64,000 nucleotides of DNA from Chloroflexota bacterium (lineage in GTDB: Bacteria > Chloroflexota > Anaerolineae > Aggregatilineales > Phototrophicaceae), in assembly GCA_028875245.1 (NCBI GenBank), contig JAPPEU010000086.1, positions 1 to 64,000 of the forward strand, given 5' to 3'. The position numbers and the translations under genes are program-made. The notes below the pieces were generated by a model that saw only the letters and a program-made list of their open reading frames with translations, ran no database searches and had not been told where the DNA came from. Within the stretch, counting starts at the first letter, position 1. The number at the start of each line of letters is the position of its first letter. Below, piece by piece: positions 3,883-62,770 of the stretch.

Positions 3883-4776
3883 ATGAGATCGCTGTCGGCT
3901 GTCCCGATGCGAGTCGCTCAATCGCTGCGCTGGTTTGCTCATATCTGGCGCAGCCTGCGTCGATCGCGGCAAGGCACAATTGGCCTGATGATCGTCATCG
4001 TGCACATGTTCATTGCCGTGGCATCGCCTTATATCGTCCCGTATGCTCACCATGATATTGACGGCAAAAACCGGCTGGCGGCGCCCTCCGCCGAACATCC
4101 ATTTGGCACCGATTCCTTCGGTCGCGATCTCTTTACGCGAGTCCTGCTCGGTGGGCGCGCGGCGATTGGCGTGGCTTTGTTGGCCGCCGCGATCGCGGTC
4201 TTGTGGGGCGGGCTGCTCGGCATTCTGCTCGCGTTTATCGGCGGGCGGGTTGACGAAGTGCTTATGCGCCTGGTTGACGCCTTGCTGGCCATACCCGGCT
4301 TGCTCGTGGTATTGCTCATTGTCGTGGCTCTCGGCACCGGATTCAGCGTGCTCATTCTAACCCTGGGCTACGCATACGGTGTAACGACTGTTCGCGTGGC
4401 GCGTGGCGCTGCCCTGGGTTATGTAGCGAGTGATTTCATCACGGCGGCGCGGGCGCGCGGTGAACGCAAGACCAATATCGTCCTGCGGGAATTGATACCC
4501 AACCTCTTGGATGTGCTCCTGGTCGAATACGTGATGCGGGCGTCCTGGGCCCTGACCGCCATCAGCTCGCTGTCCTACCTCGGCTTCGGGATCGCCCCGC
4601 CAACCCCGGACTGGGGGCGTATGGTTTTCGAGAACCAGGTCATGCTGGCAATCTCCCCCTGGGGAACCTTGTTCCCTGTCTTCGCCCTCGCCAGCCTGAT
4701 CATTGGCATCAACCTGGCGGGTGACGCCCTGTCCAAAGCGATCGGGCTGGACCGCAGCCAGGAAGCGCCGACATGA
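3883..4776 (+). CDS. ABC transporter permease, DppC/OppC type (transporter A)
   Basis: A 297-residue membrane permease. A basic N-terminus precedes the first membrane helix at about residues 30-52. The family motif HPFGTDSFGRDLFTRVL lies near residue 74, followed by several hydrophobic helices. The EAA loop is around residues 185-205 (ARARGERKTNIVLRELIPN). The end of the gene overlaps the start of the ATPase gene by four bases (ATGA), which indicates translational coupling. With the B-type permease it should form the heterodimeric channel. Confidence 0.95.
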   Translation: MRSLSAVPMRVAQSLRWFAHIWRSLRRSRQGTIGLMIVIVHMFIAVASPYIVPYAHHDIDGKNRLAAPSAEHPFGTDSFGRDLFTRVLLGGRAAIGVALLAAAIAVLWGGLLGILLAFIGGRVDEVLMRLVDALLAIPGLLVVLLIVVALGTGFSVLILTLGYAYGVTTVRVARGAALGYVASDFITAARARGERKTNIVLRELIPNLLDVLLVEYVMRASWALTAISSLSYLGFGIAPPTPDWGRMVFENQVMLAISPWGTLFPVFALASLIIGINLAGDALSKAIGLDRSQEAPT

Positions 4777-6872
4777 GCCAAAAGCTGCTAGAGGTTGAAG
4801 GCTTGACGACCGGTTTTCGCACGCAAGCGGGCCAAGTCCTGCAGGTGCTCCGCAATGTGTCGCTCGAGATGCAGCGGGGAGAGACACTCGGCCTGGTGGG
4901 TGAGTCCGGTTGTGGCAAGACCACCTTTGGCATGACCCTGCTGGGGCATCTTCGGCCCGGCGGCCAGGTGATGGCGGGCTCGGTGCGCTTCGAGGGCGTG
5001 GACCTATTTGGGCTGGGTCCAGACGAACTGGCAAAGATACGGGGGCAACGGGTGGCCGTAATCCCTCAAAGCGCCAGTTCCGCGCTGACGCCGACCATGC
5101 GCGTGGGCGAACAGATTGCCGAGGTCTTGACGCTGCATCTCGGTCTTGCTGGGGCTGAGTTGCAGGAACGTGTGCTGGAGCTGCTGACCCGGGTCCACTT
5201 GCCGCAAGTGGTCGAGCTCGTCCGCCGCTTTCCCCACGAGCTCTCGGGTGGTCAATTGCAACGGGTTGCCATCGCCATGGGCCTGGCCGGCAAGCCCGAA
5301 TTGCTTGTGCTCGACGAGCCGACGACAGGCCTCGATGTGACCACCCAGGCCCACATCCTCGACTTGCTGCGGGAAATCCAGGAGTCGACGGGTACGGCGA
5401 TGCTGTACATAAGCCACGACATGGGCGCGATCGCGCGCGTCTGCGATCGTCTGGCGGTGATGTACGCGGGCGAAATCGTTGAGGATGGGGCAATTGACGA
5501 TGTATTTGCCGATCCGGTGCATCCGTATACGCGCGGCCTGCTGGGTTCGGTGCCTCGTCTCTCATACGCTGGCCTGCCACAAGCGATGGCCGGTCGGCCG
5601 CCTGCTCCCGGCGAAGATGCGGTTGGCTGCGCCTTCGTCCCGCGCTGCGCCTTCGCCGATGAGACTTGCAAAACCATTGACCCGGCGCTCGAAGCAACGA
5701 GTCGCGCTGGGGCGATACCCCATCTGGTGCAATGCCATCATTGGCAGCGAGTCCTGGCAAGCGGGGCATCCGGCCAGATGCGCGACCTGAAGGCTCGGAT
5801 GGAACAGGACGCAGAAGCAGAACCGCTGCTCGAACTGACCGAGGTGGACATTACTTATGCCAAGCGTGGTCTGGCCGCGCTGGTGGCGCGCTGGCGAAAC
5901 GAGCCCGAGCCGCCGACGACCGTGAGCGGCTTTACCATCACGATCCACCGGGGCGAAACGTTGGCCCTCGTTGGCGAGAGCGGTTCCGGCAAATCTACCA
6001 TCGCCCGCACGATCGCTGGATTGCTGCCGCCCCGCGCCGGGCAGATTGACTTCGGGGGACAGGATCTCGCCTCAGCAGTCGAAGGCCGTCCGGCTGAGAT
6101 GCACCGCAAAATCCAGATCATCTTCCAAAACCCTGACGCGTCTCTCAATCCGCGCCATACCGTCAAGCAGATTCTCGATGCCCCGCTGCGCCTTTACTTC
6201 GAGATGGACGGTAAAGGGCGTCTGGACCGGTCTGGCGCGCTGCTGGAAGAGGTGCGGCTCACGCCACGATATCTGGAACGGCATCCCGGCCAAATGTCCG
6301 GCGGCGAAAAACAGCGGGTTGCCGTCGCGCGCGCCTTTGCCGCCGAGCCGGACCTGGTCTTGTGCGACGAGGTAACCTCCGCGCTTGATGTTTCGGTGCA
6401 GGCCGCTGTCCTGGAGCTGCTGGCGGGTCTCCAGGCTAACCGGGGCGCAGCCTATCTCTTTATCTCGCATGACCTGGCGGTAGTCCGCGCCATCGCCGAC
6501 CGGGTAGCCGTGCTCTATCAGGGCCGGATCTGCGAAGTGGGGCCAGTGGCGGAGATCTACGCGCCACCCTACCATCCCTATACCGAGACCTTGCTGGCGG
6601 CCGTGCCGGAGCCGGCGCCGGGCGCGCGGGCGCAGCTGCTGGCCAAGGACGTGCCAGAGGCGGAACCGCCGACGCGCGGTTGCTGTTTCCAGCGGCGCTG
6701 CCCCCGCCGCATCGGGTCCATCTGCGACGACGAGGCGCCCCCCAGCCAGTTTGTGGCTGAAGGGCATATCATTCGCTGCCACATCCCGCTTGCGGATTTG
6801 GGGGAGTCACAAGTGGATCTCATTAGCCCAGCCGAAATCGCAACGCAAGGCGCAGTGGTTGATGGCAAGTAA
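4773..6872 (+). CDS. Fused two-domain ABC transporter ATPase, DppD-DppF/GsiA type (transporter A)
   Basis: A 699-residue cytoplasmic protein with two nucleotide-binding domains in one chain. Domain 1 has Walker A GESGCGKT (43-50), signature LSGGQ (157-161) and Walker B LLVLDEP (177-183). Domain 2 has Walker A GESGSGKST (401-409), signature MSGGE (508-512) and LVLCDEV (528-534), where Val replaces the usual Pro after DE. Each half ends in the oligopeptide-transporter C-terminal region with four cysteines (first set at 286, 292, 299 and 321). In a mycobacterial DppD this pattern is reported to hold an iron-sulphur cluster. It powers the two permeases encoded just upstream. Confidence 0.95.
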   Translation: MSQKLLEVEGLTTGFRTQAGQVLQVLRNVSLEMQRGETLGLVGESGCGKTTFGMTLLGHLRPGGQVMAGSVRFEGVDLFGLGPDELAKIRGQRVAVIPQSASSALTPTMRVGEQIAEVLTLHLGLAGAELQERVLELLTRVHLPQVVELVRRFPHELSGGQLQRVAIAMGLAGKPELLVLDEPTTGLDVTTQAHILDLLREIQESTGTAMLYISHDMGAIARVCDRLAVMYAGEIVEDGAIDDVFADPVHPYTRGLLGSVPRLSYAGLPQAMAGRPPAPGEDAVGCAFVPRCAFADETCKTIDPALEATSRAGAIPHLVQCHHWQRVLASGASGQMRDLKARMEQDAEAEPLLELTEVDITYAKRGLAALVARWRNEPEPPTTVSGFTITIHRGETLALVGESGSGKSTIARTIAGLLPPRAGQIDFGGQDLASAVEGRPAEMHRKIQIIFQNPDASLNPRHTVKQILDAPLRLYFEMDGKGRLDRSGALLEEVRLTPRYLERHPGQMSGGEKQRVAVARAFAAEPDLVLCDEVTSALDVSVQAAVLELLAGLQANRGAAYLFISHDLAVVRAIADRVAVLYQGRICEVGPVAEIYAPPYHPYTETLLAAVPEPAPGARAQLLAKDVPEAEPPTRGCCFQRRCPRRIGSICDDEAPPSQFVAEGHIIRCHIPLADLGESQVDLISPAEIATQGAVVDGK

Positions 6873-32875: not shown

Positions 32876-32925
32876 CCCCATCCCCCGGCCCCTTGCCCCA
32901 GCGAGCCAGGGAAGGGGCGCTGGGC
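32876..32925. repeat. GC-rich hairpin repeat family 2
   Basis: C-rich and G-rich runs pair: GCCCCTT at 32888-32894 with AAGGGGC at 32912-32918, continuing through CC/GG. It shares the CCCC-rich/GGGG-rich hairpin style of the copies at 36402, 38408 and 61437. It lies in the 225-base gap between the aminotransferase and the transporter C binding protein gene. Confidence 0.5.
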
Positions 32926-36401: not shown

Positions 36402-36449
36402 CTTTGCCCCCCACCCCTAGCCCCCTCCCCCATTAAGAGGGAGGGGGAA
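36402..36449 (+). repeat. GC-rich hairpin repeat family 2
   Basis: CCCCCTCCC at 36421-36429 pairs perfectly with GGGAGGGGG at 36439-36447 around a 9-base loop, preceded by another C-rich run. It fills the gap between the transporter D binding protein and permease genes, where it could act as an attenuator or mRNA-stabilising structure. Confidence 0.6.
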
Positions 36450-36471
36450 TTCGGACACGGCGGACAAGGAA

Positions 36472-37415: not shown

Positions 37416-39611
37416 GTGGCCATCACCACCCGCAGTCTGCTGGATGTTGAGCGCCTCACGATCAGCTACGAGGTCAATAAGCGCTGGATTCCGGCCGTGC
37501 GCGATTTTCACCTGCGGCTGCGGCCGGGGCAGATCGTCGGTCTGGTCGGTGAATCGGGCTCGGGCAAATCGACCATCGCTTTGGCGCTGATGCGTTATCT
37601 CAGCGGCAACGGGCGCGTCGAGAGCGGCGGCCTGCTGCGCTTCGCCGGCGAAGACCTGCTGCGAAAATCCGACGCGGAGATGCGTCGCCTCTGGGCGAAG
37701 CGCGTCAAGTTCGTGCCGCAAAACGCGGGCGCGGCGCTCAATCCATCGATCAAGATCGGGCCGCAAGTGGCTGAGGCGCTCAAGGCGGCCGACGCAATCG
37801 ACGGCGACGCCGCCTACGATACCATGATGCGGGTCTTTCACGACGTCCGCCTGGCGGACCCCGAACGCGTCGCCGAGCGTTACCCGCACGAATTGAGCGG
37901 CGGCATGCAGCAGCGCGTCACCATCGCCATGGCCCTCATCAGCAATCCCGAACTCCTGATCATGGATGAGCCGACCACCGGGCTGGATGTCACCACGGAG
38001 GCGGCCATCCTCGATCTGGTGCGCGGCCTGATCGCGGAACGAGGAACGGGCGTCATCTACATCAGCCACAACCTCGGCGTTATCGCGCAATTGTGCGAGC
38101 GCGTCGTCGTGCTCTATGCCGGCGAGATTATGGAAGAAGCGCCCGTCCTTGACCTGTTCCAGGCGCCCAGGCATCCCTACACGCTTGGGTTGATCAGCAG
38201 CGTGCCGAAACCGGGCCAAAGCAAGCGCGCCGCCCCGCTGCAATCGATCGCGGGCAATCCACCCGCGCTGACGCGGCTGCCCGGCGGCTGCGTCTTCGCG
38301 GAACGCTGCGCCTGGGCAATCGATATCTGCCGCGACAAACGACCGCCGCTGGAACAACTGGCCGACAAACGCGCCGTGCGCTGTCATCGTTGGGAAGAGC
38401 TTAGCCAACCCCACCCCCCGACCCCCTCCCCGAGGCATCAGATGCCCGCCATAGAGATAGCGGGAAGGGGAACGACCAAACCTATCCGAAGGCCGGCCCC
38501 TGACGCAAAGTCTGCAACTGAGCAGGCAAAGTCTCCCTCCATTGCAATGGGGGGAGATTTAGAGGGGGGTTGGCAGGCCGACGAAACCCTCCTGCGCGCC
38601 GACAACCTGAACAAAGCATTTCCCGTCCCGCGCAGCTTGCGCGAGCTGTTGGCGCGGACCGCGCCCTCGCCGATTCGCGCCGTCGATGGCGTAGACCTCC
38701 ACTTGCGCGCCGGGCGGACGCTCGGCCTGGTCGGCGAGAGCGGCAGCGGCAAGACGACGCTCGCGCGCCTCATCATCGGCTTGGAGGAGCGCAGCGGCGG
38801 CAAGTTGGAACTTCTGGGCATGGATGTGCGCAATCATGTGCGCGATCGCAGCCAGGATGTACTGTCAAAAATACAGATGGTGTTTCAGAACCCGCAAAAC
38901 TCGCTGAATCCTTATCTATCCGTGCGGCAAGCCATCCGCCGCCCGCTGATCAAGCTTCGCCGCTTTTCGCCCGCTGAAGCGGACGCCGAGGCCCTCGCTT
39001 TGCTAGCGCGCGTCAATCTGCGCCCGGAATACGCGGACCGCTACCCCGACGAATTGAGCGGGGGCGAGAAGCAGCGTGTCGCGATTGCGCGGGCCTTCGC
39101 TTCCGACCCCGACCTCATCATCTGCGACGAACCGGTGTCGGCGCTGGATGTGTCGGTGCAATCGGCCGTGCTGAACCTGCTGGCGGCGCTACAGGACGAA
39201 CATGGCAGCGCTTACCTCTTCATTTCGCACAACCTGTCGGTGGTCGGTTATTTGGCCGATACCATCGCCGTCATGTATCTGGGCCAGCTGGTTGAAGTGG
39301 GTGAAGCGCGGGAGCTCTTTCAAGCGCCCTACCACCCCTACAGCGAAGCGCTTGTTTCGGCGATACCAGTGGCGGACCCGCGGCATTCAACGGCGCGCAT
39401 CTTGCTCAGCGACGATCTGCCCAGCGCGCAAAACTTGCCGAGCGGCTGCCGCTTTCATACGCGCTGCCCGCGAAAAATCGGCGAAATCTGCGAGCGCGAA
39501 GAGCCGCCCTGGCGCCCGGGCGACCGCGGCCATCTCATCCGCTGCCATATCCCGCTGGAGGAGTTGACCAGCCTGCAGAGCGGATCGAACCCGCTGGAAA
39601 AGGCGGATTGA
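37416..39611 (+). CDS. Fused two-domain ABC transporter ATPase with a repeat-derived linker (transporter D)
   Basis: A 731-residue fused DppD-DppF protein starting at GTG two bases after the permease stop. Domain 1: Walker A GESGSGKST (45-53), signature LSGGMQQRV (160-168), Walker B LLIMDEPTTGLD (180-191). Domain 2: Walker [10 protein letters not shown] (440-448), signature LSGGEKQRV and [12 protein letters not shown]. Both halves end in the four-Cys oligopeptide-transporter region. The linker at residues 331-387 is rich in Pro, Arg and Gly and has no family similarity. It is encoded by two GC-rich hairpin repeats (38408-38470 and 38531-38571), so the repeat is translated in frame. The transporter A homologue lacks this segment. 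Confidence 0.95.
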   Translation: MAITTRSLLDVERLTISYEVNKRWIPAVRDFHLRLRPGQIVGLVGESGSGKSTIALALMRYLSGNGRVESGGLLRFAGEDLLRKSDAEMRRLWAKRVKFVPQNAGAALNPSIKIGPQVAEALKAADAIDGDAAYDTMMRVFHDVRLADPERVAERYPHELSGGMQQRVTIAMALISNPELLIMDEPTTGLDVTTEAAILDLVRGLIAERGTGVIYISHNLGVIAQLCERVVVLYAGEIMEEAPVLDLFQAPRHPYTLGLISSVPKPGQSKRAAPLQSIAGNPPALTRLPGGCVFAERCAWAIDICRDKRPPLEQLADKRAVRCHRWEELSQPHPPTPSPRHQMPAIEIAGRGTTKPIRRPAPDAKSATEQAKSPSIAMGGDLEGGWQADETLLRADNLNKAFPVPRSLRELLARTAPSPIRAVDGVDLHLRAGRTLGLVGESGSGKTTLARLIIGLEERSGGKLELLGMDVRNHVRDRSQDVLSKIQMVFQNPQNSLNPYLSVRQAIRRPLIKLRRFSPAEADAEALALLARVNLRPEYADRYPDELSGGEKQRVAIARAFASDPDLIICDEPVSALDVSVQSAVLNLLAALQDEHGSAYLFISHNLSVVGYLADTIAVMYLGQLVEVGEARELFQAPYHPYSEALVSAIPVADPRHSTARILLSDDLPSAQNLPSGCRFHTRCPRKIGEICEREEPPWRPGDRGHLIRCHIPLEELTSLQSGSNPLEKAD
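38408..38571 (+). repeat. Composite family 2 repeat inside the ATPase coding sequence
   Basis: The first part (38408-38470) pairs C-rich CCCCTCCCCGAGGCATCA with a downstream GGGAAGGGG run. The second part is a near-perfect palindrome at 38533-38556 (CTCCCTCCATTG/CAATGGGGGGAG), followed by AGAGGGGGGTT. The same two parts in the same order occur in non-conserved DNA at 61437-61553. Here they encode residues 331-387 without breaking the frame. Confidence 0.7.
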
Positions 39612-41454: not shown

Positions 41455-41479
41455 GTAGGGGCGAGACGGCGGCTCGCCC
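41455..41479 (-). repeat. Dispersed palindromic repeat family 1, single arm
   Basis: Read on the minus strand this is GGGCGAGCCGCCGTCTCGCC then CCTAC, the family core. It lies in the 48-base gap between the F-type ATPase and SDR genes. Confidence 0.7.
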
Positions 41480-50477: not shown

Positions 50478-50603
50478 GTAGGTCCAAGTTAATCGCGTGA
50501 AATTGTAATCTATAGTGTTGGCGCGAGCGGGCGAGTCACCGCCTCGCCCCTACAACCTTCCGACTGTTTTCGCACTCTTGCTGCAGCTGTCGACATTGTT
50601 AAA
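50478..50603 (+). repeat. Degenerate copy of the family 1 MITE-like element
   Basis: It starts with GTAGGTCCAAGTTA, 10 of 11 bases of the terminal repeat seen at 56491, followed by AATCTATAG and the family core GGGCGAGTCACCGCCTCGCC then CCTACAACC at 50529-50556. The right end is degenerate. It occupies the gap before the second GH2 gene. Confidence 0.55.
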
Positions 50604-55330: not shown

Positions 55331-55348
55331 CTTTGGCAGCCATAAATC

Positions 55349-55436
55349 GGGCGACTCAATGGCTCGCCCCTACAAGGCAATCTTCTGTCGTGGCAATTTC
55401 CTTCTTATGTCATTTACGATGATTGCGTACTTGGAA
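55349..55436 (+). repeat. Partial family 1 MITE-like element (core and right half)
   Basis: The core GGGCGACTCAATGGCTCGCC then CCTACAAGG lies at 55349-55378. TGGCAATTTCC follows at 55391-55401 and CTTGGAA at 55430-55436, spaced as in the complete element at 56491-56633. The left half is absent. It ends next to the stop codon of the amidohydrolase gene. Confidence 0.6.
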
Positions 55437-56490: not shown

Positions 56491-56633
56491 GTAGTTCCAA
56501 GTTAGTCATGCGAAAACTGACCAGCAATCTATAGACAAAGTGGGCGAGCCACCGTCTCGCCCCTACAACCTTTCAATTGTTATGGCAATTTCCGTTTGTT
56601 CTGCGATCATTCTCATTAATTTCTTGGAACTAC
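56491..56633 (+). mobile_element. MITE-like element with 11-bp terminal inverted repeats
   Basis: GTAGTTCCAAG at 56491-56501 and CTTGGAACTAC at 56623-56633 are perfect inverted repeats. Between them lie AATCTATAG, the family 1 core GGGCGAGCCACCGTCTCGCC then CCTACAACC at 56542-56570, and TGGCAATTTCC at 56583-56593. No open frame fits inside 143 bases, so it would be non-autonomous. No clear target duplication is seen. Partial copies at 50478 and 55349 share the left and right halves. Confidence 0.65.
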
Positions 56634-59580: not shown

Positions 59581-60636
59581 TCAGCCTCCGCCCGCGTCCA
59601 CGCCGAGTTCGGCCGCCAGTTCACATATCGCCGTCCACAGACTGTCCGGAAGGCTGATGCCTTCTCGCTGACGGCGCAGGGTCAAGCGATATTCCGGCTC
59701 GCCCGGGAAGAGCACCTCGTCGACGCCCGCCCGCGGCCGCGCTGATTTGACATGGGCGACGAGGGCCCGCGTGCGCCGTTTGAAATCGGCGATGTCTTCC
59801 ATGGCGGCGATATTCATCACTTGAAACAAGACGCCATTGCCATGCGTGACCGCCGCTTCGCTGACGTAACCGGCGCCGCTCAAGCCGCCAGCCAGCATCT
59901 CGATCATCACGCCGAGCGCATAGCCTTTGTGCCCGGCCGGCCCGCCCAAAGGCAGGAGGCCGCCCGCCGGCGGTCCATAGAAATCGGCCGCGTCGCGCGT
60001 CGGGTTGCCGTCGGCGTCGATAATCACATTTTCCGGCAGTTGCGCGCCGCGAAAGAGATGATCGCGCACTTTGCCTTCGGGCATGACCGAGGCGGTGATA
60101 TCCACCAGCACCGGCCAGTCGTAGCCGCTGGGCGCGGCGAAAGCCAGCGGCGTCGGCGTGAAGCGGCCGTCGATCCCGCCCCAGGGCACGACGCTGCCGT
60201 CGCCCCCCGTTTGCGAGTTGACATAAGCCAGCCCGATCATGTCGCGCTCGGCCGCCATCACGACGTATTCGCCCAGCCGACCGATATGCGGGCAATTCAC
60301 CAATGCCACCATGCTGATGCCAGCCGAGGCCGCCATCTCAATCGCCCGCTCCATGCCCGCGCGCGCCGCCACTTGCCCCCAGGCCCGCCCCGCATCCAGA
60401 ACGGCGATGCTCGCCCGCTCGCGCAGGGTCAGGACATCGGCCGCCGGTTTGATGTAACCGTCGCGCAAGAATTCTACATATTGCAGCAGGCGCATAATTC
60501 CATGCGAATCATGCCCGGCCAGGTTGGCGCGCAGCAGCGTCTCGGCAACCCAGGCCGAGCGCTCCGGCGGCGAGCCCAGCGCATTCAGAATCGCCGCGCC
60601 CAAATGCCGCAGTCGCTCCGGTTTCATCGTGGGCAT
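59581..60636 (-). CDS. Malate/L-lactate (Ldh2)-family dehydrogenase
   Basis: A 351-residue NAD(P)-dependent 2-hydroxyacid or imine dehydrogenase of the LDH2/MDH2 family. The hallmark GHDSHGIMRL is near residue 41, VALVNCPHIGRLGEYV near 110 carries the active-site His, and GGPAGHKGYALGVMIEMLAG is near 236. ATG at 60636 overlaps the aldolase gene stop by one base; the longer reading to 60762 is inside that gene. Members act on lactate, malate, ureidoglycolate, 2,3-diketogulonate or sugar 2-keto acids. The last class would suit this cluster. Confidence 0.9.
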   Translation of the reverse strand: MPTMKPERLRHLGAAILNALGSPPERSAWVAETLLRANLAGHDSHGIMRLLQYVEFLRDGYIKPAADVLTLRERASIAVLDAGRAWGQVAARAGMERAIEMAASAGISMVALVNCPHIGRLGEYVVMAAERDMIGLAYVNSQTGGDGSVVPWGGIDGRFTPTPLAFAAPSGYDWPVLVDITASVMPEGKVRDHLFRGAQLPENVIIDADGNPTRDAADFYGPPAGGLLPLGGPAGHKGYALGVMIEMLAGGLSGAGYVSEAAVTHGNGVLFQVMNIAAMEDIADFKRRTRALVAHVKSARPRAGVDEVLFPGEPEYRLTLRRQREGISLPDSLWTAICELAAELGVDAGGG

Positions 60637-61427
60637 CAGAGACCTCCGTTCGCTGCGGCAGCCCGAAAGCGGTCCATCATCGCGCGCGCGCCCGTGAGTA
60701 TCAGTCCTTGATCGGATGCGATCGGGATGATGCGCAAGCCTTGCTTCAGCAGGTTCTCCCAACTAAAGGGGCTGCTCGCGTCGGCGTCGGGCGAGCGGCC
60801 GGACATCAGCGGCATGCCGGCGGCGCGCGCTTTGGCCGCTACCGCGTCAATCGTCGCTATGACGCGCGGATCGTCAAAATCGGGCAGCAGGCCCATGCTC
60901 GCGCTCAAATCAACCGCGCCAATCATGCAGGCGTCCAGCCCTTCGACTTCCAGCAAGGCCTCAAAGTCCTCGACGCCGCTGACGGTCTCGATCATGATGG
61001 CGACGATGGTCGATTCATTCGCCGCCGCCAGGTATGCTTTCTCGTCAAGTCCGTAACGGCTGGGCCGGCGTGGCCCGGTGCCGCGGATGCCCAATGGCGG
61101 ATACTTGCAAGCGGCCACCGCCCGACGCGCTTCGTCGGCGCTGTCAATTTGCGGCACGATGACGCCGTCCGCCCCCATATCCAGCAGGCGCTTGATGTGG
61201 TCTGGGTCCTTGCCCGGGGCGCGCGCCAAGGTCGGCGTATCGCCCAGCGCGATGAGCAGATTCTGCAGCGTCTGAAGGTCGATCGCCGTGTGCTCGGTGT
61301 CTATGGCGACCCAGTCCAGGCCGACATCACCAATCATCTCGGCGACGGTGATGTCCGTCAGGCTCATCCACATGCCCGGGCTGGCTTCGCCGCGCCGCCA
61401 TTTCGCTTTCAATTCGATTGCGTTCAC
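60636..61427 (-). CDS. HpcH/HpaI-family class II pyruvate aldolase
   Basis: A 263-residue metal-dependent aldolase that splits 2-keto-3-deoxy or 4-hydroxy-2-keto acids into pyruvate and an aldehyde. Features are WVAIDTEHTAID near residue 38 (catalytic His region), GADGVIVPQIDSADEARRAV near 85, and the metal ligand Glu in IMIETVSGVED near 137 and Asp in GAVDLSASMG near 160. GTG at 61427 is chosen, since upstream codons to 61466 fall in a GC-rich repeat. 2-keto-3-deoxy-L-rhamnonate aldolase of this family makes a deoxysugar-acid substrate plausible. Confidence 0.9.
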   Translation of the reverse strand: MNAIELKAKWRRGEASPGMWMSLTDITVAEMIGDVGLDWVAIDTEHTAIDLQTLQNLLIALGDTPTLARAPGKDPDHIKRLLDMGADGVIVPQIDSADEARRAVAACKYPPLGIRGTGPRRPSRYGLDEKAYLAAANESTIVAIMIETVSGVEDFEALLEVEGLDACMIGAVDLSASMGLLPDFDDPRVIATIDAVAAKARAAGMPLMSGRSPDADASSPFSWENLLKQGLRIIPIASDQGLILTGARAMMDRFRAAAANGGL

Positions 61428-61436
61428 TTTTTTCCA

Positions 61437-61553
61437 CCCTCTCCCCTCGGCCCCTCCCCGAAGCATCAGGGAGGGGAGTTTGTCGCAATCCGATGGATAT
61501 CACCGTCTTTGCACAGCCTCCCCCCATCCCGATGGGGGGACTGAGGGGGTTTA
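61437..61553. repeat. Composite family 2 repeat at the end of the MalK-type gene
   Basis: Part one (61437-61480) pairs CCCCTCCC with GGGAGGGG around GAAGCATCA. Part two pairs TCCCCCCATC (61519-61528) with GATGGGGGGA (61531-61540), followed by CTGAGGGGGTTT. Order and motifs match the composite repeat at 38408-38571. The minus-strand reading through 61466-61558 supplies the last 30 residues and stop codon of the MalK-type protein. Confidence 0.7.
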
Positions 61554-62647
61554 TCATTCAGCAATGAGCGCTCGCTTGCGGCGTCAAAGAGATGCATCTG
61601 CTCGCCGGCGAAATGCAAGTGACAGGGCGCGCCGACAGGGACAGATTCTTGCGCGTCGACGATCACGCCGAAAAGCTGCTCGGCGGCGCGCGCGAAAATC
61701 AGGTCGCGGCTGCCCAGCGCTTCCACCAGCTCCACTTGGCCGCTGACCGTGTTCTCGCCCGGCGCCGATACCAGCTTGATCGCTTCCGGCCGAATGCCCC
61801 AGATGACGCCGTCGCTCTTCATTTTCCCCAGGCCGTCGGCGAAGCGCGCCGGCAGCGACAGCTCGAACCCGGGCAGCCGCAGACGATAGCCGCCCTCGTC
61901 CGCGACTATCCGGCCGCTAAGCATATTCATACTGGGCGTGCCGACGAAGTTGGCGACGAAGGCGTTCCGCGGCCCGAAGAAGACCTCATGCGGTGTGCCC
62001 ACCTGCTGAATGTCGCCATTGTTCATCACGATGATCTTGTCGCCGAGCGTCATCGCTTCTTCCTGATCATGGGTGACAAAGATGAAGGTCGCGCCGGTAT
62101 CCTGATGCAGGCGTTTGATTTCGGTGCGCAGTTGGACGCGCAGCTTCGCGTCCAGATTGCTCAGGGGCTCGTCCATCAAGAAGACTTCCGGCCGGCGGAC
62201 CATCGCCCGCGCCAGCGCCACCCGCTGCGCCTCGCCGCCACTGACCTGGCGCAGGCTTCGTTCCAAGAGATGATCGATATTGACCAGGCGCGCCACCTCG
62301 CGCACGGTGCGGTCGATCTCTTTGCGCTTCATCTTGATCGCGTGCAGCGGGAAGGCGATGTTCTCATAAACATTCATGGTCGGGTACATGCTGAAGTTTT
62401 GGAAGACCATGGCCAGACGGCGATCTTTCGGCGCCAGGTCGGTGATGTCGCGCTCGGCAATCGTGATGCGGCCGCTGTCCGGCTGCTCCAGGCCGGCGAT
62501 CATCCGCAGAGTGGTCGTCTTGCCGCAGCCCGAGGGACCCAGTAATACCGCCAGCTCGCCTTTCTCGATGACCAGATTGATTTTGTTGACCGCGGCGCGT
62601 TCCGCATTGGCGAACCGCTTGAGCAGGTCTTTCAATACAACTTTCAT
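61466..62647 (-). CDS. ABC transporter ATPase, MalK/UgpC/MsmX type, with repeat-derived C-terminal tail
   Basis: A 393-residue nucleotide-binding subunit for carbohydrate importers. Walker A GPSGCGKTTT is near residue 37, signature VSGGEAQRVALARAM near 135, Walker B VFLMDEPLSNLD near 155 and the switch VTHDQEEAM near 190. The C-terminal regulatory TOBE-type domain spans about 235-360 and normally ends near QMHLFDA. Here another 30 residues (from NDKPPQSPHRDGG to the stop) are encoded by the GC-rich composite repeat. It serves the MalF/MalG permeases encoded upstream and may also serve other importers, as MsmX-type proteins do. Confidence 0.94.
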   Translation of the reverse strand: MKVVLKDLLKRFANAERAAVNKINLVIEKGELAVLLGPSGCGKTTTLRMIAGLEQPDSGRITIAERDITDLAPKDRRLAMVFQNFSMYPTMNVYENIAFPLHAIKMKRKEIDRTVREVARLVNIDHLLERSLRQVSGGEAQRVALARAMVRRPEVFLMDEPLSNLDAKLRVQLRTEIKRLHQDTGATFIFVTHDQEEAMTLGDKIIVMNNGDIQQVGTPHEVFFGPRNAFVANFVGTPSMNMLSGRIVADEGGYRLRLPGFELSLPARFADGLGKMKSDGVIWGIRPEAIKLVSAPGENTVSGQVELVEALGSRDLIFARAAEQLFGVIVDAQESVPVGAPCHLHFAGEQMHLFDAASERSLLNDKPPQSPHRDGGRLCKDGDIHRIATNSPP

Positions 62648-62686
62648 TTCAGTTCAACCATTTCCCGCCCGCTACCACTGGCCTGC

Positions 62687-62770
62687 GGGCGAGCCACCGT
62701 CCCGCCCCTACAGCGGCTTATAGCTAATGTTGCCTGTAGAGGTCAGACGGTGGCTGACCCTTTGCCATAG
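62687..62770 (+). repeat. Dispersed palindromic repeat family 1, long inverted-repeat form
   Basis: The left arm GGGCGAGCCACCGTCCCGCC then CCTACA begins at 62687. The right arm (about 62735-62758, TGTAGAGGTCAGACGGTGGC) is nearly its reverse complement. Same architecture as 66-138. It fills the gap between the MalG-type and MalK-type genes. Confidence 0.8.

Follow-up and report, generated by a model that had tools for sequence, protein, structure and literature searches.

Dispersed palindromic repeats encode the interdomain linker of a fused DppD-DppF-type ABC ATPase in a Chloroflexota bacterium and probably entered an already fused gene

The two domains of a fused DppD-DppF-type ABC ATPase of a Chloroflexota bacterium are joined by a linker whose DNA consists of short palindromic repeats. 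It is very probable that the gene was already a fusion when these repeats (an element E1 with a nested unit N1, followed by an element E2) entered the segment between its domains. The gene lies in the stretch of DNA that we analyzed (64,000 nucleotides of contig JAPPEU010000086.1, hereafter the window), and Table 1 gives the coordinates of its features.

Pfam analysis of the 731-aa protein found ABC_tran and oligo_HPY in two stretches each, arranged as a DppD-like half and then a DppF-like half. The NCBIfam dipeptide ABC ATPase subfamily NF008453 matched the protein above the model cut-off. Permease genes flank the gene on both sides and a substrate-binding protein gene is found upstream (neighbors named by reading). 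With two ABC_tran and two oligo_HPY stretches in one ORF and permease/binding-protein neighbors, it is a fused DppD-DppF ABC ATPase gene. Its product is predicted to hydrolyze ATP, most likely as an ordinary fused subunit of an ABC importer of the dipeptide/oligopeptide type, in which the repeat peptide serves as a passive tether. The AlphaFold model (18 sequences) had a mean pLDDT of 85.1 and a pTM of 0.85. The 10-residue blocks of domain 1 were at 83-96 pLDDT, the first block excepted, and residues 334-388 formed the sole internal segment with pLDDT <50. Such a low modeled pLDDT fits a disordered tether and falls short of proof. The fused ATPase of transporter A in the same window has a short linker of a different kind; a preliminary description of the window was correct that this homolog lacks the repeat between its domains.

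The linker DNA is composed of E1 with nested N1, a spacer, and then E2. The E2 palindrome spans 38529-38560, its arms (38529-38547 and 38542-38560) being 89% complementary, and the G-rich tail reaches 38572. This agrees with the near-perfect palindrome that had been placed at 38533-38556. A recurrence of the two-part unit and single hairpins at 32876 and 36402, all described earlier, were found again. The second two-part unit runs into an ABC ATPase ORF on the minus strand (61466-62647), for which it encodes the C-terminal tail and the stop codon; this copy is therefore not purely intergenic. The stop codon that it supplies shares bases with the first ATG of the following ORF (60636-61466). 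Both this ORF overlap and the nested third unit N1 had been missed in the preliminary description. A further dispersed palindrome of the GTAG type, E3 (GGGCGAGCCACCGTCTCGCCCCTACA), is also present in the window; elsewhere in the genome it is often split by another nested unit, N3.

Table 1. Fused ATPase genes and repeat elements located in the window
Feature	Position	Strand	Basis
Fused DppD-DppF-type ABC ATPase gene, 731 aa, GTG start	37416..39611	+	open frame; Pfam; NCBIfam
Domain 1 (DppD-like ATPase and oligo_HPY region), residues 1-329	37416..38402	+	Pfam; AlphaFold
Repeat-encoded linker, residues 331-387 (codon 331 begins at the first position, codon 387 ends at the last)	38406..38576	+	matches dispersed DNA; low pLDDT
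Element E1: C-rich arm and hairpin, split by N1	38405..38475	+	nhmmer matches elsewhere in own genome
Nested unit N1: 24-nt pattern match, ~21 nt inserted, read MPAIEIAG	38441..38464	+	copies; L032/L062 comparison; covariation
Element E2: near-perfect palindrome and G-rich tail, read as KSPSIAMGGDLEGG	38529..38572	+	palindrome and nhmmer searches
Domain 2 (DppF-like ATPase), residues 388-731	38577..39608	+	Pfam; ortholog alignment
Second E1 and E2 unit; overlaps 3' end of minus-strand ABC ATPase ORF	61435..61549	+	window sequence
Single E1-type hairpin, between two genes	32876..32925	+	nhmmer
Single E1-type hairpin, between substrate-binding protein and permease genes	36402..36455	+	nhmmer
E3 copies	65-91, 41455-41479, 50528-50554, 55348-55374, 56541-56567, 62686-62712		search
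Transporter A fused ATPase, 699 aa, without repeat linker	4773..6872	+	ORF reading

A search of the organism's own 4.2 Mb genome with the linker DNA gave at least 56 matches at E<=1. Merging of matches within 200 bases left 40 clusters, the query included, so that at least 39 other places match pieces of the linker; with 40 of 78 first-look candidates scored, these counts are a lower bound. The earlier claim that residues 331-387 derive from a dispersed two-part hairpin repeat is borne out by these matches. In 464 kb of sequence from this genome, with palindromic cores counted on both strands, the cores of the E1 arm, E1 hairpin, E2, N1, and N3 gave 17, 4, 10, 12, and 16 hits, compared with 0, 0, 0, 1, and 1 hits after one simple base shuffle per stretch; since 17 of the 21 stretches were picked near known matches, the core counts are no estimate of density. 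N1 occurs at 29 places in the genome (<=3 mismatches; backward control, 0) and N3 at 81 places (control, 0). Long ORFs (>=200 aa, with 60 codons on each side) spanned 6 of 30 loci from the linker search and 6 of the 29 N1 copies, the window's own locus being included in both counts, and 6 of the 30 N3 copies examined out of 81. Most copies examined fall outside long ORFs. Among candidate genes crossed by repeats, the ORFs at L007, L022, L185, L219, and L232 were rejected as antisense or upstream extensions (by reading).

N1 was located within an E1-like hairpin in 28 of 29 copies under a loose flank rule (C-rich left, G-rich right) vs. 305 of 20,000 random positions, and in 20 of 29 copies under a strict rule vs. 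6 of 20,000. Compared with the plain element, the deletion that gave the best match was 21 nt long in 17 of the 29 copies, 20 nt in 4, and 22 nt in 3; lengths of 16, 17, 19, 24, and 26 nt were found in one copy each. The N1 stem is 8 bp long. Among 19 distinct forms from the own genome, three of the eight pairs have changed on both sides (6 cells); of 500 shuffles, 4 attained this number of pairs and none this number of cells or the covariation score, although related copies inflate such counts. Sliding the pairing lowers the score. The measure "further pair types" was non-significant for the same 19 forms (reached by 55 of 500 shuffles). An earlier count (22 forms, double changes in 5 of 8 pairs) was dropped: three of its forms had been picked from other genomes, and because two of these three favor the N1 stem, we rely on the recount with own-genome forms.

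Turnover of the linker was examined among orthologs. Linkers were labeled by BLAST against the 464 kb of the window genome with its two fused genes masked, and these labels replaced those assigned by eye. Of 34 genes in the tree, 16 are repeat-bearing (L033 passes the rule only at E 0.001), 14 are repeat-free, and 4 are unlabeled (L042, L045, L068, and L070). The tree was built without the linker columns and rooted on seven repeat-free outgroup genes. A first tree, which included a paralog on contig C33 and L048, was poorly supported, with some extremely long branches, and was rebuilt without both. On strict labels the repeat state changes five times, all forced by well supported branches; the number is seven if the four unclear linkers are taken as repeats and five if none is. 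The repeat has been gained or lost repeatedly. L035 (with repeat) and L063 (without) are sisters at 100/100 support and both are fused. Median linker length, anchors included, was 63.5 aa for the 16 repeat-bearing genes and 42.5 aa for the 14 repeat-free genes. The coding frame is open in 17 of 17 repeat linkers; of the two remaining frames on that strand, one is open in none of the 17 and one in a single linker. Because loci were kept only with both Walker A motifs in one ORF, the open linker frames are partly so by construction.

Nested units are present in some orthologous linkers and absent from others. By reading, L031 has an extra N1 relative to L032, L032 carries an N3-like unit, L062 has N1 twice, and L072 has an L035-type linker plus one 21-nt N1. 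In-frame differences of 21 or 24 nt are found between L035 and L072 and among L031, L032, and L062. With MITEs in mind, whose hallmarks are terminal inverted repeats and target-site duplications, several linkers were seen by reading to hold E1 pairs of opposite orientation; no target-site duplication could be shown at the insert flanks, which are runs of C or G. The contigs of L047 (G011:C3) and L052 (G001:C51) end inside the linker, as expected of repeat DNA, and most of the genomes are drafts. L049 (G004:C245:5-2081) has E2 in the linker region; its matching pieces overlap and are non-colinear near residue 275 in domain 1, possibly as a result of a frame break in this domain or an assembly error.

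The linkers of L035, L041, L042, and L072 are similar, yet these genes form no clade on the gene tree. One genome (G019) holds two copies of the fused gene, L037 and L072, with different repeat linkers. Since linker type is incongruent with the gene tree, recombination may spread linkers alongside fresh insertion. Similar linkers in non-sister genes and the two copies in G019 would be accounted for if linkers spread mainly by homologous recombination between strains or gene copies, and not by mobility of the elements. We consider this unlikely as the main route: L035 resembles its sister L063 just outside the insert (by reading), the presence or absence of nested units needs insertion or deletion, and the copies are dispersed genome-wide.

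Alternatively, the repeat linker or its mRNA hairpin might be kept for a function such as domain spacing, pausing between the domains, or regulation. RNA of 38400-38580 folds better than 200 of 200 shuffles (z -3.6), and repeats recur at the same sites, as such a function would suggest; tolerance, however, equally predicts recurrence at one site. Close relatives differ in linker sequence, length, and repeat type, and some have no repeat. The same repeat is also read in several frames. N1 is open in five of six frames, of which at least four are read in different genes and genomes; this argues against a selected peptide. Maintenance for a function is in our estimate quite improbable.

The age of the fusion was judged from more distant genes. 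Seven fused orthologs from families f2, f3, f6, and f8 of the same order are repeat-free, and short linkers also occur inside the genus (e.g., L063, L067, L069, and L071). At a threshold of E<=0.001, none of these short linkers from the outgroups and the genus had a counterpart in the window genome's dispersed DNA; the nearest to the threshold was that of outgroup L078, which just fails at E 0.002. Fifteen further fused relatives, chosen among 80 loci for a match spanning both domains, have linkers of 28-33 residues with no stops and, by reading, no repeats; according to the database record, 13 of the 15 belong to other phyla. A single ORF with two Walker A motifs was present in 36 of 38 loci read, partial loci such as L049 and L052-L054 having been left out; the exceptions, L047 and L075, are on cut or short contigs. 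On the basis of these sequence comparisons the fusion is older than the repeats, which appear to have entered an already fused gene, and more than once.

The preliminary description had further proposed that a repeat-bearing intergenic D-F spacer was read through to become the linker, making one gene of dppD and dppF. The hairpin repeat as translated linker holds, and the captured spacer as a route to fusion does not. Capture predicts many dispersed hits and absence from other orthologous linkers, as was found here (the seven outgroup linkers have no match), and insertion after fusion predicts the same. The mechanism itself is possible: in this genome a repeat joins an S9 peptidase frame to RmlC, and G011 keeps the stop. 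As the route to fusion of the ATPase gene it fails, because repeat-free fused genes exist in four other families and in other phyla and because the repeat state changes at least five times among genes already fused; the sisters L035 and L063 likewise differ in the repeat, both being fused. Capture is refuted here unless the outgroup fusions arose independently, and we regard it as highly improbable.

The chance that low-complexity GC-rich DNA simply looks repetitive is negligible: backward (mirror-image) searches found matches for 6 of 36 linkers, namely those with E2 or a GTAG-type repeat, and for 1 of 52 inserts, but shuffled and backward controls were otherwise at or near zero and the N1 stem shows compensatory changes. 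The best reading remains insertion after fusion, by elements that resemble Rickettsia palindromes and would be tolerated in disordered loops. E1 with its nested N1 of ~21 nt, and then E2, would have inserted between the domains of a pre-existing fusion. Inserts that are in frame and in a disordered segment would survive and others would be lost. The repeats would thus be mobile and their inserts nearly neutral, with selection removing frame-breaking copies.

The same process appears, again from sequence, at four further sites in three other proteins. The linker of the paralogous fused ATPase on contig C33 contains E2 with nested N3, which adds 8 codons within E2 vs. the usual E2 reading, and E1 with nested N1. 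This second fused ATPase (the own gene and 20 fetched relatives) is one ORF in 20 of 21 cases and every linker is different; the window genome's dispersed DNA is matched by 18 of these 20 linkers, L311 and L316 being the exceptions. In glycine dehydrogenase subunit 2 (GcvPB, L166:7099-8823), one loop varies from 39 residues (three empty sites) to 88 residues, anchors included. Inserts matching dispersed DNA were found at 10 of 14 readable GcvPB loci, and the three empty sites and L254 had no match. A sortilin-like propeller (L178:8278-11874) has two inserts. At its site 2, 6 of 18 readable loci have 52-69 residues and 6 of 6 match dispersed DNA, and the 12 empty loci have 29-30 residues and 0 of 12 match, bearing in mind that longer inserts have more chance of matching. 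The readable loci are those read by regular expressions (14 of 30 for GcvPB and 18 of 30 for propeller site 2, own included); the 16 and 12 unread loci count as neither state. In-frame units were also found in a GT4 glycosyltransferase, an acyl-CoA dehydrogenase, and an iron alcohol dehydrogenase (filled sites only).

On contig C34 (L180:11431-13890, corresponding to G000:C34:26431-28890), a single ORF of 820 codons holds both an S9 peptidase and an RmlC-type epimerase, the peptidase frame being carried across an N3 unit. In all 20 other loci that were read (34 genomes searched), the peptidase ends at a stop of its own. Compared with G011, the junction in the own genome is 22 nt longer, adjoining bases are substituted, and the ancestral stop has fallen out of frame. 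On account of these 22 nt, nested units can no longer be regarded as codon multiples throughout. Since RmlC keeps its own ATG, the S9-RmlC fusion protein is a candidate only. The joining of two genes by a repeat, as first suggested for the fused ATPase, may operate at this locus and not in the ATPase gene.

N1 (<=2 mismatches) was found in 23 of 34 genomes of the genus, at 1 to 77 copies each, and E2 (<=3 mismatches) also in 23 of 34; neither was found in 120 other genomes of the order. Within the order searched and at this stringency, the repeats are genus-specific. RAYT-like matches are present in 27 of the 34 genus genomes. Of three RAYT matches in the own genome, the one inspected (a RAYT-like gene at L161:1456-2115, G000:C36) lies between binding-protein and permease genes and is flanked by GTAG-type palindromes (by reading). 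It scored 69.2 bits with the NCBIfam RAYT model, below the cut-off of 80, and 24.4 with Pfam Y1_Tnp, just above the cut-off of 23. In the 3.2 kb around this gene, no E1, E2, E3, N1, or N3 core was found within the mismatch limits. N1 copies and RAYT matches showed no clear correlation (Spearman 0.22, p 0.22, n=34; without G033, 0.29, p 0.10). A role of RAYT as N1 mobilizer was unsupported: G001 and G024 carry 26 and 40 N1 copies and no RAYT, and G033 has 10 RAYT matches and no N1. RAYT is a candidate mobilizer for the GTAG-type E3 only.

In-frame palindromes in genes are already known. Rickettsia palindromic elements (RPEs) are described as palindromic dispersed repeats of 105-150 bp, found in frame in unrelated conserved protein genes and between genes, and are thought to be neutral or slightly harmful (PMC10969869, PMC2229807). 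The Chloroflexota repeats resemble this description in being palindromic, genome-dispersed, in frame in unrelated conserved genes, and absent from some orthologs. They differ from it in phylum and in nesting, and perhaps in size: single units are ~21-45 nt, E1 with N1 is ~70 nt, and whole two-part stretches are 115-171 nt, set against 100-150 bp for RPEs, element ends being loosely defined. Intragenic GTAG/CGTC REPs were reported in several species, where dimers or clusters encode 20-82 residues (Di Nocera et al., 2013, PMC3733652). The same paper describes REPs at about the same site of Xanthomonas recB, suggested to be neutral in flexible regions, GTAG repeats in Chloroflexi, and REPs that supply stop codons (PMC3733652). 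The repeats studied here likewise lie inside ORFs, recur at a site, and supply a stop codon. No GTAG or CGTC tag was seen by reading on E1, E2, or N1, whose ends are loosely defined; E3 (TGTAGGGGCGAG...) carries GTAG and is absent from the linker of the 731-aa ATPase. Genus-wide turnover with empty sites and nested units distinguishes the present case from intragenic REPs as described there. REPINs are inverted pairs of short palindromes associated with RAYT transposases (Bertels and Rainey, 2011, PMC3116915). The likeness to that system is the presence of RAYT-like genes, one with GTAG-type palindromes at its flanks; the difference is that N1 copy number has no clear link to RAYT matches across the 34 genomes. 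The small dispersed repeats of Nostoc, said to have been described by Elhai et al. in 2008, are reportedly ~20-nt units nested inside other repeats. Among titles and opening lines of abstracts retrieved from the open-license literature, none reports in-frame palindromes in Chloroflexota proteins. As far as this literature goes, what is new is the occurrence of in-frame inserts in this phylum, their turnover at the same loops across a genus, and the presence or absence of nested units in orthologous coding DNA.

A broader view, which we put forward as speculative, is that the genus harbors its own mobile micro-palindromes shaped for life inside genes. N1, at ~21 nt a multiple of the codon length and placed in the hairpin loops of larger repeats, could be one of them, and such units might repeatedly rewrite the same loops of core enzymes; its cousin N3, untied to codon length, could shift the frame and put neighbors into one ORF, as at the S9 peptidase-RmlC locus. 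The gene in the window is one instance of genus-wide in-frame repeat insertion. The variable linkers of fused transporters in these genomes should be taken as repeat DNA and not as functional domains. Palindromes that encode protein are familiar chiefly from Rickettsia and certain genomes rich in REPs. In this genus, 34 genomes can be searched, and the same loops of several core proteins are filled in some of them and empty in others; one can therefore ask directly whether the inserts ride along neutrally or furnish raw material for proteins, and what moves a unit of 21 nt.
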